Assembly (NCBI GenBank): GCA_016758965.1
Contig: JAEPRB010000243.1
Location: 1 to 58,131, forward strand
Length of the DNA: 58,131 nt
Reading direction: 5' to 3'
Source: Circinella minor
Taxonomy: Eukaryota; Mucoromycota; Mucoromycetes; Mucorales; Lichtheimiaceae
Within the stretch, counting starts at the first letter, position 1. Every line of letters begins with the position of its first letter. The position numbers and the translations under genes were made by a program. Positions 32,774 to 50,971 of the stretch are shown piece by piece. The notes below the pieces were generated by a model that worked only from the letters and a program-made list of their open reading frames with translations, ran no database searches and was not told the origin of the DNA.

Positions 32774-35604
32774 ATGGCTCCTTTAACAGAAACAAGTGGA
32801 TTTAGTATAAATAGTTCTTTAGAAAAGAACAGCTTAAAAAATAAGATACACACGATCGGATCTTATAAATTATTAGAAACTTTGGGTATAGGCGAGTTTG
32901 GTAAAGTCAAGTTAGCTCAACATGTTCACACTGGTCAAAAAGTATTATTATTTTTATTTATTATCTTTTTGAAAGAAAAACAATAAAAGTTTTTATTAAT
33001 TATATATATATATTTTTCTTTTCTTTTGAAGGTGGCTATTAAAATGATTGATAAAAATTATACTGAAAAAGTGAATATTCGTGACAAAGTGGATAGAGAA
33101 ATCGTTCTTTTAAAGGTATTTTTTGAGAGAAAAAAAAAATAGCAATTAAAACCCCGTATCACTTATTTCTTTGTCCCAAAAAAATATATAACTCAGGTTA
33201 TATAAAACGTATAATAAGATTTTTTATTCTGTAAAATACAGTTTTTTAATAACAAAAAAAAAAAACACTTTTTTTTTTTTTTTGTCATAATGACACATAA
33301 AAAATATTGATTAGAAATTATCACATCCATCTATTGTTAAACTTTTTGATGTGATTGAAACAGAACGATATATTGGCATGGTAATGGAATATGCCTCAGG
33401 TAAAAAAAAAAAAAAAAAAATATTTAATTTTATTTTTGCTTCGTGCACGTCCCCCCATCTTTTTTAACTAAATAAAAATAACAATGTTTTTTTTTCTTTC
33501 ACCGAATAGGTGGAGAACTTTTTGAATATATTTTAACTCGAGATTATCTTGAAGAACATGTTGCACGACCATTTTTTGGTCAACTTATTAGTAGTGTACA
33601 TTATATGCATCAAAAAGGTGTTGTTCATCGCGATTTAAAGCTGGTAAGTAATAAAAAAAAAGCTAATTATGTATTATTCGCTTTTTTTTTTTTTTTATTA
33701 TGTAAAATACGAAAATAACACATAACACGAGTAAAAAAAGAAGTTCTGGATGGGTTAGATTTTTTGCGTGTGTAAATTTTTGCATAACAAAGTTGTATAA
33801 TAGCTAACTCCGCGCGTGCCCAATTTATTTTATTTATTTTTATTTTCTACCAATTTTTGTGTTTATTTTTGAAATGGGGGGGATCTAAACCAAAATAAGG
33901 AAAATGTCCTTTTATTTGATGACCAACGTCATATAGTTATTACTGATTTCGGATTTGCAAATAATTGCACGGGCCAAGAAGACTTATTGAGTACATGTTG
34001 TGGATCGCCATGTTACGCCGCTCCTGAACTTTTAGTGGGATCCGAATATGTTGGCCCTGCCGTCGATATTTGGTCTTGTGGTGTCGTTCTCTATGCCATG
34101 TTATGTGGATTCTTACCTTTTGATGATCATCGTAATATGAGTTTATTATATAAAGATATGTTAGAAGCACCCCTTGTTTTTCCATCACGAATTAGTCCAG
34201 ATGCACGGGATCTTTTGCGTCAAATGTTGGAACCTAATCCTGAACATCGATGTAAAATGGAAATAGTCTTGGCTCATCCATGGTTAGAAAATCAGCGGAC
34301 AATTTTGGAAAAAAGTTTGGAAACTCTGGAAACCGAAGCGATGGAAATGTCACGTACAAATGGGGTGACCACAAGTACAACGATGGCGGGAATAACACCA
34401 GAAGAGGAAGACGAACAAGGAATCGCAGTTAATAATAGTATGCACAGTAATAATTTTATTGGAACGATCGAAAATGTAGAAAAACCGCAGCAATCTATGA
34501 AAGTGGCGTCTTTGGCAGTGGCGTCCTCACCCTCTCCTCCTCCGGAAGTGCCATCCGCAGTACAAACCGATGATAATATACCAAAGCTTCAATTAAGCAA
34601 ACGACAACGGTTTTTTCGATTATTCTATCTCATTAGAAAGGAAAAAGATACCCACTGTAACAACAATAATAATACGAGTAGCAGTAGTTCTAATAGCACC
34701 ACCTCAGAATCTGATGATATTAAACATAGACGACGGTTTACTTGGTCATTAACGATGCGACGTGGTGATCGAAAACGAAAAAAGAGGGAGAGCAATAACT
34801 GTAAGAAAACAAAAATATAAACTCGAGAAAAAGAGCTAGCGATATGGGGAAAACAGGATACATGGCAATATGGAAAAAAAAAAATTGAGAAATATTTTTT
34901 TCTTTTCCCTTTTTTTTTTTTTAATTATTCTAATAATAATGGCTGGAAACTGTATCTGGAGAAAGGATATTCACAGGGGGAAAAAAAGAAGTGTTATGAT
35001 AATATTATGATAATAGTATGAGGGGGCGGCGATATGGATTGATCGCATTGATTATCATGAAAAAAAAACAGAAGGGGGGGAGGGAAAAAAGGGGGTATAT
35101 TATGTATAGATTATGTATAATTATATATTATTATTCTCTGACCTGTTATATATTTATTTGTTTTTTTTTTTCTTGTTCTACGTTCCTGCATAATCATGTA
35201 TTATAGCAATTGCATGTATTACTCGGGTACATCCAGAATCACTATTAGTATTTACAAAAATTAGTGACCATCAGTTGCTTACGTTAGTCTTGCGTGTTCT
35301 GGCTATCTTGGGAATTCATATCCGTCAAGATGGTAATCAACAAATTGCATGTATTCGACGACCCAATGATTCCGGAACAATATATGGAAGTATGGAAAAT
35401 GGTTGTGAAGTCACATTCATTGTGGATATTAATTATACTGCATCCCATGGTCTTCGGAGCATTGGCATAAGACATCAAGAGGGACAAGAAGTTGCATATG
35501 AGTTTTTATGTGGTAAAATTATGGATATGTTAGAGCTTTTATTGGAACCACATCATCATCATCATCAGCAGCATCATCATCAGCAACAACAACACCAACA
35601 ATAG
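32774..35604 (+). CDS. Kin4/Ppk1-like Ser/Thr protein kinase with KA1-like tail
   Basis: Six exons, 32774-32941, 33032-33115, 33315-33399, 33510-33643, 33900-34800 and 35207-35604, join in phase to 589 aa. The kinase domain begins at about residue 30 ([74 protein letters not shown]) and all catalytic residues are present. The activation loop resembles SNF1-related Kin4-type kinases, which act in spindle-position and cell-cycle control (family knowledge). A disordered region with basic KHRRRFTWS follows. The last exon ([18 protein letters not shown] to [12 protein letters not shown]) looks like a KA1 membrane/autoinhibitory domain and ends in a His/Gln tract. The final intron is long (406 nt); if retained, translation stops 19 nt past the donor (TAA at 34818-34820) and the KA1 part is lost. 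Confidence 0.88.
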
Positions 35605-46488: not shown

Positions 46489-48624
46489 ATTAACTCAAAG
46501 CGATCACAAAATTAAATCGACTCATTGTTTTTGTGGTAAACAAGCATGTATAATTACACAATTTATTGATATTTGACATTAATGGTGGGGAGGACTCTAA
46601 ATATTTCATCGAATCCCTTCCGAATATATGCATTATTGTGAATAAACGACATAATAACTAGATGAGTGCTTTATTTATAAGTAGGATGAGAAATCCCATT
46701 CATTTTATTATTGTTGATCGTTATTAATCTAGAAAGAAGATGAAGCTACCCAGACGACGAACCAAAATATTTAATTACTTATTACTAAAATAGTTTCAAC
46801 TACACTGAAACGATCAAACCTTTTTTTTTTTCATTAGAAATTAAAGTTTATTAAAAACAGTTACTTATCAGAAATATATATATTATTGATTACCTAGTGA
46901 AAACTAGCACATTTTCTTGTATTCATCTAATATATAGAAAAAAAAATGAGAACCCGTTTTATATAAGTAAAAATTTACTATACACACCAATACATTCCAG
47001 CTTATACAAAATACAATTTAGTTATATACGTATCAATCACTTTTTTTTTTTTTTTGTTTTTCCCAGGAACTAAACAAATTTTACAGATCAAAATTTTTTT
47101 AACCCAATAACAAAAAACTGTGCAATAAACTGCTGAAACAATATTCACACTCTATTTTCTCACCCCACAACTGATTTAGGAAACTGAAACCAAAAAAGGA
47201 TTTTACCAGTGGACTGTTACACGAATAAGTTATTACAAAAAAGGGTCTGGTGGGGAATATATACTCTCGTGAAATAGGAGAAAAAAAAAGAAAACATTCT
47301 AACTATTCTATCAAGTTCTGCATCTACTCTGCTTCCGTTTACTCGGTATTATATATTTCCGGGGGAAACCCCCTGATTTGCATGATGGGGGTGCCTGGTA
47401 AAGCTTGTTTGATGAGTAAAAATAAAATAAAAAAGGAAGAAAGAAAGAAGCTCAAGTAAGTAGTAAATTATTTTTCATTTCTGATGCTTTACGTATTCAT
47501 AAGTTATGTACTCGTAATACAATATTGAATTTCATTATGCAAATATCAACGTGCGAAATTTTCTCACCAAAATGTTTCATATTGCTTCACCTTATTCAGA
47601 GTTGATTTTACTCACGATATAAAAAATATACCTCTTATTTTTATTTGTTTGGGTAAAAGTCTTGTATCATTTTTTAGTAACAACTCAGCAAAAAAAAAAA
47701 AAAAAGGAGAACATGATTCAAATCCAAAGAAGGTTTGTATTACTCAAATCTATTTAACTAAAATTGAAACAGAATGGAAGAAAGAAACAAAAAAAAAATA
47801 AATGACGAAAAAATAAACTCGGGTATGTAATTTGATTTTTATAGTATGTGAACTAGTCAAGGGGTAATAATTAATATATGTCATAACATTGATAAGCTCT
47901 ACATATTTCGCTTGGTTATTAGTAGGTTGACATAAAAGGGTTTAGATATATTATGTAATATAATAGATAACTTTTTCCTATGATTTGACGCTGAGTTCTT
48001 TTGAATTTGGCGGCATGATGATGAATTATATAAATTTATGCATCTTGGTTAATTTATAATGACACACATTTCGGTGGTTTAAAAAATCCATCATCTTGCT
48101 TTGTTGTAATATTTTATTTCTTTAGCGATAAGTATAAACTGTTCAGAAATAAAAGATATGATAGATATAAAAAATATACAAATATTCACTACCATATTTT
48201 CTCATCCAGCACATACGGTGAAAAAAAATCAACCTTGAATGATTCATCTATCCTCTGTATGACTTTTGATGAGCGCAGATGTGATAATATGTGGACAGTT
48301 AAAGAATTTACTTTAGTCAAAAGCTCGCATTTTACATCAACCTTTAGTTATGATTAGAAATCTTCAATGGTAATAAGAAATGGTCAAATCAATATAGGGA
48401 TAATGTAATCATTATAAAACAAAATGTATAAGATACATAGCAGTAAATATAAAAAAACTATTGAAAGAAAATTTAATAGGATTTACAATGTAGTAATGGT
48501 TTTAATAGAATTGTTTTTTTTTAAGAATAAAAAAAAAACAAGTAATCATATATATAAAAGATAATCAATTCTTGACACTCGTTTATCCAAGCCTAATGGT
48601 GCTCTGATCCTTGATTGGTTCTTA

Positions 48625-50155
48625 TTATATGACTTCAACCCACTGGGTATGTCTTTTGGTTTCAGCCACTTATTATGTTGTGCAATGTATTCTATTAGTA
48701 TTTGTTCTGTTTTTTTTATGTAGCATCGTAACAAAAATGAACTCTACTTTCTTTAAACTTACAAGTTATTTATACCCTCACTTGATTTTTAAAGCAGTAG
48801 ATTTGGTTTATAAGTTTTGCAATGAAATTTGTTAGTATGAGTTCGTACCATAATAACAAAAAAAAAAAATGAATCCATTTTCTTATTTATTTATTTTTAC
48901 TTACTGTCTAGTATTTTACCACCCCCCATTTAGAGTTTTGAAATAATAAATGTTATTATTTATATTTGTTTTTTTACAATGAATTAGTATTTGTTCTATT
49001 TTTGTGCTATTCTAAAAAAAACCCGTCTCTTATTTTATATAACTTACGGCCTATTTATTATAATCCACACATTTGGTTTTTAAAGTAATGGGGGTTGGTG
49101 TCATTTATATTTTTTTTAACAATGAATTCTGTCAGTATTTGTTCTTTTTTTTTTGTTCCATTATAAGAAGCGTTAACTCTACGTAATCCCTTATTTTCTA
49201 ACTTACAACCTATTCGTATTTAACCGATTGAGGGTTTTTTTTTTGAAGTAATAATAAATGTTATTTATGAATTCTGTTAGTATTTGTGCTATTATAAGAG
49301 ACATTGACTCCACTTTTTTTTTCATTTTATAAACTTACCATCTATTAATATTCAACACATTGGGTTTTGAAGTTATTTGGATGCCATTATTTATCATTTT
49401 TTTTTTTTTATAAAATGAAGTTTGTTAGTGAAATTTGTTTTTTTTTTTTTTTTTTTTACCGTAACATATAAAAAACGTTCATATTAATTTACTTACGAGC
49501 TATTCATAATCCACATACATTTGGTTTTTCAAGTCATAAATGATATTTACAATGAATTCTTCTGTTAGTATCACTGTTCTTTTTTTTTTTTTTTTTTGCT
49601 ATTATATAAGAGACGTTAATTTCACTCTTTTATTTTTTTTGTAACTTACTTCCTATGAATATAAATATAATGTCATTTATCGTTTTTTTTTTTGACGATG
49701 GATTCTGTTAGTATGTGTTCTTTCTAATAAAAAAAAACCATTAACGTCACTCCCTTAATTTAATAACTTACGGCCTAGTAATAATCAATACATTTGGTTT
49801 TAACAGTAACCGAATATGTGATTTAAAATTTCGTTAGTATTTGGTCTTTTTTTTTTTTTTGTGTCATCGTAACAACTATACTTTCTTATTCTTTTAACTT
49901 ACATACTATTCATAATCCAAACATTTGGTTTTTAGAGTAATGAATATTATGTTAGTATTTGATCTCTTTTTTTTCTTCCATTATATAATAAAAAAACATG
50001 AACTTCACTTCCTTATATTCTAACTTACCACTGTTTATAGAACTGTCAATATTACTATCCGTATTTTGAATGTCACCCATTGGTTGAGCAATACTGGTGT
50101 ATGTTGTGGAAAGGACCAAAACAAAGATGAATAAGATAATAGTAGAATATTTCAT
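48625..50155 (-). CDS. predicted secreted-peptide gene with eight tandem 3-nt microexons
   Basis: Exon 1 (50029-50155) encodes a clear signal peptide (MKYSTIILFIFVLVLSTTYT, then SIA before QP) and ends in phase 1 at a GTAAGT donor. Downstream, eight units each contain a TACTAAC-like branch point, a 44-80-nt stretch without AG, then AG, three bases, and GTAAGT. The triplets lie at 49903-49905 (TAT), 49772-49774 (GCC), 49650-49652 (GAA), 49497-49499 (CTC), 49339-49341 (ATG), 49207-49209 (GTT), 49048-49050 (GCC) and 48905-48907 (ACA). Joined, they read V-C-R-T-H-G-C-H with no stop. A ninth unit keeps GTAAGT (48762) but its AG is AA. The 3' end is uncertain: the next acceptor (48781) gives a stop at 48770; using the acceptor at 48669 gives a stop at 48625. 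Function is unknown. Exon skipping of the whole array is the main alternative. Confidence 0.6.
48635..50028 (-). repeat. tandem array of about nine diverged 122-159-bp splice-unit repeats
   Basis: GTAAGT donors on the minus strand end at 50028, 49902, 49771, 49649, 49496, 49338, 49206, 49047, 48904 and 48762, spaced 126, 131, 122, 153, 158, 132, 159, 143 and 142 nt. Each unit repeats, on the plus strand, GAATTCTGTTAGTATTTGTT, a T run, an ATTATAAGA-like word, AACTTAC, a variable triplet, and CTATT then CACATTTGGTTTTTAAAGTA. The units are diverged in length and in homopolymers, but the splice motifs are constant. Confidence 0.85.
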
Positions 50156-50220
50156 ACGTAATGGGTATTTTATTGTTGAATAAAGAAAGTTATAGTTGAT
50201 TTGAGGATAGAAAAATTTCA

Positions 50221-50229
50221 CTTTATATA
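50221..50229 (-). promoter_or_regulatory. TATA box of the microexon gene
   Basis: On the minus strand TATATAAAG lies about 65-70 nt upstream of the ATG at 50155, a normal spacing for a short fungal leader. Confidence 0.55.
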
Positions 50230-50971
50230 GTCCTTTTTTTTTTTTTGGTCTGTGTTGAAAAATATATACTATTGAGTAGTTATAAACAACAAGGATGCAG
50301 GGGCTTAAAGGAGTACTTTAACAAATCAAATATCTTTTACATAATCTGTAACATTAATGCAAGTAGCTTATAAGGAAGTGTTCTCTGTTTATATGTACTA
50401 AATCAAATTTGAAAAGAAAGACCTTTCGGGTGTGTCATATTATATATGAAGCAAAGAAGTTTTTTTTTTTAGACCCAGAGTAAATATTATGTCCTTTCAT
50501 CTTGATTTAATTCCAATGTTTATAAGGTTATCATTGTTTATTTGTTTTATCTTTTATTTTCAGAATATTATTAACTATAATGCAGTCGTCTCCTACCCCT
50601 TTCTCATATACTAATTTAACTTTTTTTTTTCTCTTTTTTTAAAAGATTTCGCCAAAACGCTATATATTATTCTCTTACTTTTATACACTTCTTGCTCAAA
50701 GTACCATAAGAAAGAAGAGACCTAGAGGCGTAGCTCAATTCAATCTTTTATCTTCTTTGGCAACTCTGGTTCTTTTTTTTTTTTTTTGCCTCCTCTACGA
50801 TTTCTAACCACATACTCCATAACAATATTAATAAGTAGTCAGATACAGCTTATCCAATATATAGATATGAACCTCCATTGTAACAACTAACAAAAGAGAT
50901 GCATTTTCATGCATGCCATTGACCTTTGGCATTTATAAATATTAAAAAAGTATTCAGAAGTATTTTCATCT
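50230..50971. other. intergenic, no gene recognised
   Basis: AT-rich with T runs; no supported coding or RNA gene. Confidence 0.35.

Follow-up and report, generated by a model that had tools for sequence, protein, structure and literature searches.

Tandem introns in Circinella minor suggest secreted peptides encoded by serial 3-nt exons

A 58,131-nt stretch of Circinella minor DNA (contig JAEPRB010000243.1, here called the window) very probably carries a protein-coding micro-exon gene, one of at least 12 paralogues in this fungus, in which canonical splicing would join nucleotide triplets in order. Exon 1 would encode a signal peptide, and most of the remaining protein would be coded residue by residue by 3-nt exons situated between tandemly amplified intron copies. 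Serial 3-nt exons after a signal-peptide exon had originally been predicted from the window copy; the 12 paralogous genes, with 292 internal exons in total, now support this reading. It is supported because stops are absent and codon usage fits in one phase, stops are avoided at consecutive junctions, AG is excluded from part of the introns and amino-acid positions change faster than the introns do. On its own, the window copy would be insufficient proof; its eight codons show no preference for phase 1.

Ten GTAAGT donors lie between 48757 and 50028 on the minus strand, which carries all parts of the window gene. Over the whole window GTAAGT alone shows no enrichment (33 copies against 29.3 expected, a count reached in 22 of 100 shuffles); what is unusual is the clustering of the donors and their AG-N3 context, not their number. 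The combined motif AGNNNGTAAGT (AG-N3-GTAAGT) occurs nine times in the window against 1.22 expected, and none of 100 shuffles contains as many. Eight of these nine copies are in the array and the other is at 33639 on the plus strand. Among the nine donors 3' of exon 1, eight are directly preceded by AG plus exactly three bases, while the ninth (48762) is preceded by AA-CTT and has thus lost its acceptor AG. Both the number of donors on one strand and the eight AG-N3 contexts agree with the original prediction.

A TATA-box-like TATATAA (50223-50229) is located 74 bases before the ATG. Matches to TATA[AT]A[AG] are found 67-74 bases 5' of the ATG in nine of the 12 array genes (absent in L028, L029 and L033). 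Exon 1 (50029-50155), homologous to exon 1 of the other array genes, would encode the signal peptide MKYSTIILFIFVLVLSTTYTSIAQ and a linker PMGDIQNTDSNIDSSINS, and ends in phase 1, after the first base of a codon. The array of ten tandem introns (48669-50028), each running from GTAAGT via a branch point to AG with a donor-to-donor distance of 122-159 nt, contains eight triplets in the AG-N3-GTAAGT context: TAT (49903-49905), GCC (49772-49774), GAA (49650-49652), CTC (49497-49499), ATG (49339-49341), GTT (49207-49209), GCC (49048-49050) and ACA (48905-48907). Since exon 1 ends in phase 1, each triplet would complete one codon (positions 2 and 3) and start the following one (position 1). With the one base left by exon 1 the triplets indeed read V-C-R-T-H-G-C-H, one residue per unit, as had been proposed. 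All ten introns have a branch-point-like TACTAAC, TACTGAC, TACTAAT or CACTAAC. The claimed AG-free stretch between branch point and acceptor is also present in the eight intact units, where the only exceptions lie a few bases from the branch point.

The least certain feature of the window gene is the coding part of its last exon, for which alternative acceptors are also open. At unit 9 (48763-48780, AA-CTT-GTAAGT) the first-AG rule yields an 18-nt exon that contains a stop in phase; if that AG is not used, the unit would be skipped. When it is skipped and the first AG past the last branch point is used, the most likely coding part is 48625-48668, which continues M-A-E-T-K-R-H-T-Q-W-V-E-V-I-stop; position 48625, the left edge given in the original prediction, is the stop codon reached in this way. 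The relatives have a shorter open phase-1 reading: among the other 11 array genes, phase 1 meets a stop after 1 to 5 residues of the last exon (L025, L026, L027, L028 and L030 by the branch-point rule described below, L022 inside a spurious exon, the rest by eye). An alternative last-exon reading ending in ...WVEVI is, by eye, open in phase 0 in several relatives and in phase 1 in the window gene, and by eye it appears conserved; the reading retained here is phase 1. Around TTGAAGTCATATAATAG and GGCTTGGATAAACGGAGT (window positions 48580-48640, approximately) the sequence is well conserved in 13 aligned tails, beyond the predicted stops. Rfam gave no match at E up to 1 for 48000-50800 and none at the gathering score for the whole window, and no tRNA was found.

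DNA searches with different arrays and protein searches with exon 1, both in the 46.6-Mb, 619-contig genome, lead to one set of at least 12 array genes, each with a signal-peptide exon ending in phase 1 followed by up to 51 tandem introns (median 137 nt). The number is a lower bound, as only the best candidates were scored. The arrays lie on contigs C85 (three), C201, C144, C240, C235 (three), C321, C323/C469 and the window contig C243, where C323 and C469 are counted as one gene because both arrays run off the contig end. These two long arrays, L033 (C323:1) and L034 (C469:18979), have near-identical units and seven AAG triplets in a row, and are probably one gene broken by assembly. The phase-1 end of exon 1 is seen in the ten of 12 genes with the listed donor type; for L027 and L030 a weaker exon-1 donor was chosen, in phase 1. 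Judged by its sequence, exon 1 is signal-peptide-like in the array genes. Two remnants were observed as well, L032 (C25) with a broken exon 1 and a single unit, and L037 (C181) with three units and no recognised exon 1.

Pfam searches with four family proteins gave no match above the curated cut-off. When the short last-exon ends are included, the predicted proteins contain two cysteines in the window gene, L021, L025 and L030, four in L022, one in L024 and none in the other six; the even numbers in five genes, a small sample, would suit disulfide-bonded secreted peptides. L028 at first sight suggested an amphipathic helix, but in a shuffle test 915 of 2000 shuffles scored as high. In the same test L030 (10 of 2000), L027 (128) and L029 (153) scored better and the other ten stretches were not outstanding, and we do not claim such a helix. 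Searches with the spliced window peptide and the 12 spliced family proteins named no annotated C. minor counterpart of an array gene. A 23-base unit motif was absent from the viral_contigs and genome_contigs collections, both of which exclude fungi by design.

The exon-1 protein search also found exon 1 without an array at four places (three on C211, one on C216). Three of these (L035 at C211:9500-15500, L036 at C216:33500-37000, and C211:7689) were read and have one ordinary Cys-rich exon 2. Two array-less relatives are annotated as hypothetical proteins. Splicing exon 1 to exon 2 of a C211 relative gives a product identical to the annotated C. minor protein INT45_012988, and INT45_013343 is a C. 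minor protein on the contig matched to C216. Their best Pfam match, Toxin_23, is below the cut-off (E 0.035, 14.7 bits against 22.2). On the reverse strand of L031:1576-2000 (C321 near 19425) we found a family exon 1 with an in-frame stop and an array-unit-like intron; in our reading its exon 2 is a second kind of Cys-rich exon.

Alignment of the 12 spliced proteins yielded three proteins at E up to 1, namely P0002 and two of Circinella umbellata. One of the latter, P0007 (BDC45DRAFT_574789), has an L028-like exon 1 followed by a tail that matches a translated intron unit (19 residues, 63% against an L025 unit, E 3e-8). As annotated, its C-terminal tail runs on into an intron unit, so that the published gene model is probably incorrect, and arrays in C. 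umbellata are implied. The other, P0008, is another exon-1 relative.

Internal exons measure 3 nt in 283 of 292 cases across the 12 genes. The nine exceptions comprise 6 nt in L022, L026, L027, L030 and L033, 9 nt in L024, 18 nt in the window gene, 2 nt in L023 (unit 6) and 0 nt in L029 (unit 20), where the AG directly abuts GTAAGT. The 2-nt exon, whose inclusion would shift the frame, is the single length that is not a multiple of three. The count derives from donor chaining, which gave 291 internal exons (283 with an AG at exactly three bases), together with one 6-nt exon at the end of L030 obtained by the branch-point rule. It is partly so by construction, as chaining favours sites with AG at -5. 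An independent rule (best branch point, then the first AG at least 9 nt on) gave 3 nt for 183 of 191 exons; it covered the array to its end in eight of the 12 genes, with one spurious exon in L022, and in the other four (L021, L023, L024 and L029) it broke off before the end. Free decay of AG-N3-GTAAGT in related units, the pattern that would speak against the original prediction, was looked for and not seen: the AG is absent in 8 of 291 chained units, though chaining favours such sites. Array units have a common ancestry and do not count as independent samples.

At 281 sites the free donor positions agree with GTAAGT in 95-98% of cases, whereas information at the three exon bases amounts to 0.07, 0.15 and 0.55 bits. 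A branch-point match of at least 6/8 is present in 281 of 282 introns and perfect in 166. The stretches from branch point to acceptor contain 46 AG where base composition predicts 733; those from donor to branch point contain 1128, with 1191 expected. Of 281 introns, 38 have an AG between branch point and acceptor; in 30 of these every AG is more than 54 nt from the acceptor, and in the other 8 one AG lies within 54 nt. The median distance from branch point to acceptor is 69 nt in internal introns. In the last intron of the six genes reached by the branch-point rule it is 23-26 nt, and in one intron of a neighbouring gene, which we take to be NCS6-like, it is 25 nt. The part between branch point and acceptor of the internal introns of all arrays includes a common A-rich and GTGTGGATTAT-like element with no predicted RNA structure. 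For 24 diverse introns RNAalifold gave an energy of 0, the same as for 30 column shuffles, both for whole introns and for either half. An origin of this internal 3' element from the last exon was considered, and dropped as unsupported in the four last exons tested (193, 252, 68 and 474 of 1000 shuffles as good).

Coding constraint was analysed in 13 stretches with 289 exons (window unit 9, L023 unit 6 and L029 unit 20 were excluded). When triplets are joined in order, phase 1 contains no stops in 295 codons; shuffled orders average 6.5, and none of 2000 shuffles reaches zero. Phases 0 and 2 contain 1 and 32 stops, respectively. Codon usage, scored against 4,397 codons from ten open stretches of other window genes, amounts to +0.319 per codon for phase 1 compared to -0.218 and -0.705 for the other phases, and to 0.186 on average (maximum 0.297) in shuffles. 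Both the stop and the codon-usage result persist when L029, L033 and L034 are left out (2 and 0 of 2000 shuffles). In nine of the 13 stretches phase 1 has the highest score, the exceptions being the window, L022, L023 and L025. The exon order matters as well: consecutive junction codons hold no stops in 288 (6.4 expected, P < 0.001), whereas with one exon skipped there are 7 in 275 (6.1 expected), and with two to nine skipped P is 0.13 to 0.70. Since identical exons with an identical history give stops once a single exon is skipped, it is the in-order product with all exons that appears to be under selection.

Units of the paralogues L028 (43 units) and L029 (51 units) align in order, and 36 of 42 pairs were used (intron identity at least 0.80, mean 0.884). 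Their non-wobble triplet bases show 24 differences where intron divergence predicts 8.4 (P 8e-6), against 7 differences and 4.2 expected for wobble bases; amino-acid positions thus change about three times as often as introns. In the first 19 codons 9 are identical, 10 replaced and none silently changed. The faster change is claimed for L028/L029 alone, the later part of which may mix non-orthologous units. Within arrays, pairing of whole introns had pointed to much faster change in the triplets than in the introns. Where both flanks are at least 95% identical, however, 55 of the 66 unit pairs carry the same triplet, and the within-array excess of triplet change is small. The predicted diversification of a secreted peptide is supported as divergence between paralogues; alternative splicing would be a less likely route to it. 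As to the source of the units, intron 1 of the two-exon gene L031 (C321) aligns with an array intron from the first base (score 40.5, shuffled mean 18.0, reached in 0 of 500 shuffles), while intron 1 of L035 shows no resemblance (130 of 500 shuffles as good). The simplest origin would be duplication of intron 1 together with one triplet.

Other explanations account for parts of these observations. The array might be a non-coding repeat, spliced out or retained, with exon 1 joined to the last exon and AG-N3-GTAAGT inherited from a duplicated intron junction. The units are homologous repeats and the window's eight codons are without phase-1 preference, as such a repeat would have it; nevertheless we consider it very improbable given the phase-specific absence of stops, the codon usage, the dependence of stop avoidance on consecutive order, the depletion of AG only between branch point and acceptor, and exceptional exon lengths that are mostly multiples of three. 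Somewhat less remote, but still unlikely, is that the triplets are real exons used mainly in combination, so that variable skipping produces many in-frame peptides per gene. Exons of 3n nt can be skipped without a frame shift, and most skipped forms are open too, as skipping one to nine exons gives 32 stops in total against about 41 expected. Stop avoidance is however complete and significant only at consecutive junctions, and all skipped spacings are within chance, so selection seems to favour the product with every exon included in order.

The two remaining alternatives concern the history of the array. Introns could have been inserted every 3 nt into a continuous coding exon that was already present, in the manner of introners, rather than being duplicated along with their triplets. 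Several close intron pairs do have different triplets, and in four of the 66 unit pairs whose flanks share at least 95% identity no triplet base is the same. We regard an invasion as improbable, however, because the 55 pairs with identical triplets far outnumber these, the run of seven AAG triplets between near-identical introns suggests duplication of units, and units were found only in this family among the best candidates of the DNA searches in its own genome. A more serious possibility, though we do not favour it, is that the window copy is a decaying member of a coding family and no longer makes the full product: unit 9 has lost its acceptor and the 18-nt alternative holds an in-phase stop, units are few, and the open phase-1 reading of the last exon is longer than in relatives. 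On the other hand, exon 1 is intact, eight units retain AG-N3-GTAAGT and the TATA-like box is present.

For the preferred reading, in-order joining of single-codon exons, the most likely route would be stepwise, intron-defined and sequential from the 5' end. Each joining would place the growing exon beside the triplet's own GTAAGT, which would become the donor of the next step, and since the donor is handed on in this way no 3-nt exon would need recognition from both sides. For steric reasons it is difficult to picture a 3-nt exon being recognised from both sides, and intron-by-intron joining avoids that. We infer splicing of the RNA in this manner and order from the DNA, and likewise secretion and any function of the peptides. 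The array would grow when an intron-plus-triplet unit duplicates, which would insert one codon and leave the frame unchanged. Taking these steps together, it seems reasonably probable that the spliceosome assembles the mature peptide codon by codon, with an intron plus one codon as a heritable block, unit duplication, a splicing ratchet, diversifying selection on the triplets and a secreted family shared by Circinella species. Up to 51 serial 3-nt exons would test the limits of the spliceosome with respect to exon size, number, reliability and stepwise action from 5' to 3'. The array genes would also show proteins growing by single residues via intron duplication, and point to secreted peptides of a class that is overlooked in fungal gene prediction.

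Known systems share some of these features. Recursive splicing uses zero-length exons and stepwise joining that recreates the donor at each step. The predicted array splicing is alike in recreating the donor stepwise (compare L029 unit 20), but each of its steps would leave one codon in the mRNA. In a limited literature search (titles and abstract openings of open-licence papers) neither serial 3-nt exons nor a fungal micro-exon gene family was found; the word "microexon" does occur in fungal papers (PMC1184071, PMC4014442). At 3 nt an exon is close to the lower limit known, and in the literature found such exons occur singly. Drosophila hth is reported to have a single 3-nt exon (PMC7392893), and plant APC11 and VPS55 have single tiny exons, of which that of VPS55 is 1 nt with a strong GTRAGT donor (PMC8831610). 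These cases show that the spliceosome can handle exons of 1 or 3 nt, and differ from the predicted C. minor genes in having one per gene and no series.

Schistosome micro-exon genes are described in PMC10526429 as having 10 to 20 exons per gene, mostly of 15 bp (range 3-81 bp in the abstract, 6-81 in the text), and introns of 0.1-5 kb. Many very short exons that are mostly multiples of three, and trouble for automatic annotation, are common to both systems; the schistosome proteins are secreted, and those of C. minor are predicted to be. C. minor differs in that 283 of 292 exons are 3 nt rather than mostly 15 bp, and in that a single unit, repeated in tandem, makes up its introns. Searches with the window peptide and the 12 spliced proteins, which require shared 5-residue words, named no schistosome protein, and a relation in sequence was not to be expected. 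The aphid bicycle genes (PMC9168663) have about 17 exons on average and megacycle has more than 100 microexons for some 2000 residues. Like the C. minor genes as we read them, these are fast-evolving, putatively secreted effectors with numerous short internal exons, almost all of which have the same phase. The array genes share the single-phase feature, since exons of 3n nt keep the phase of exon 1; the phase of the bicycle exons is termed 2 by the convention of that paper. With about 2000 residues over 100-odd microexons (our arithmetic), megacycle exons are nevertheless far from single codons.
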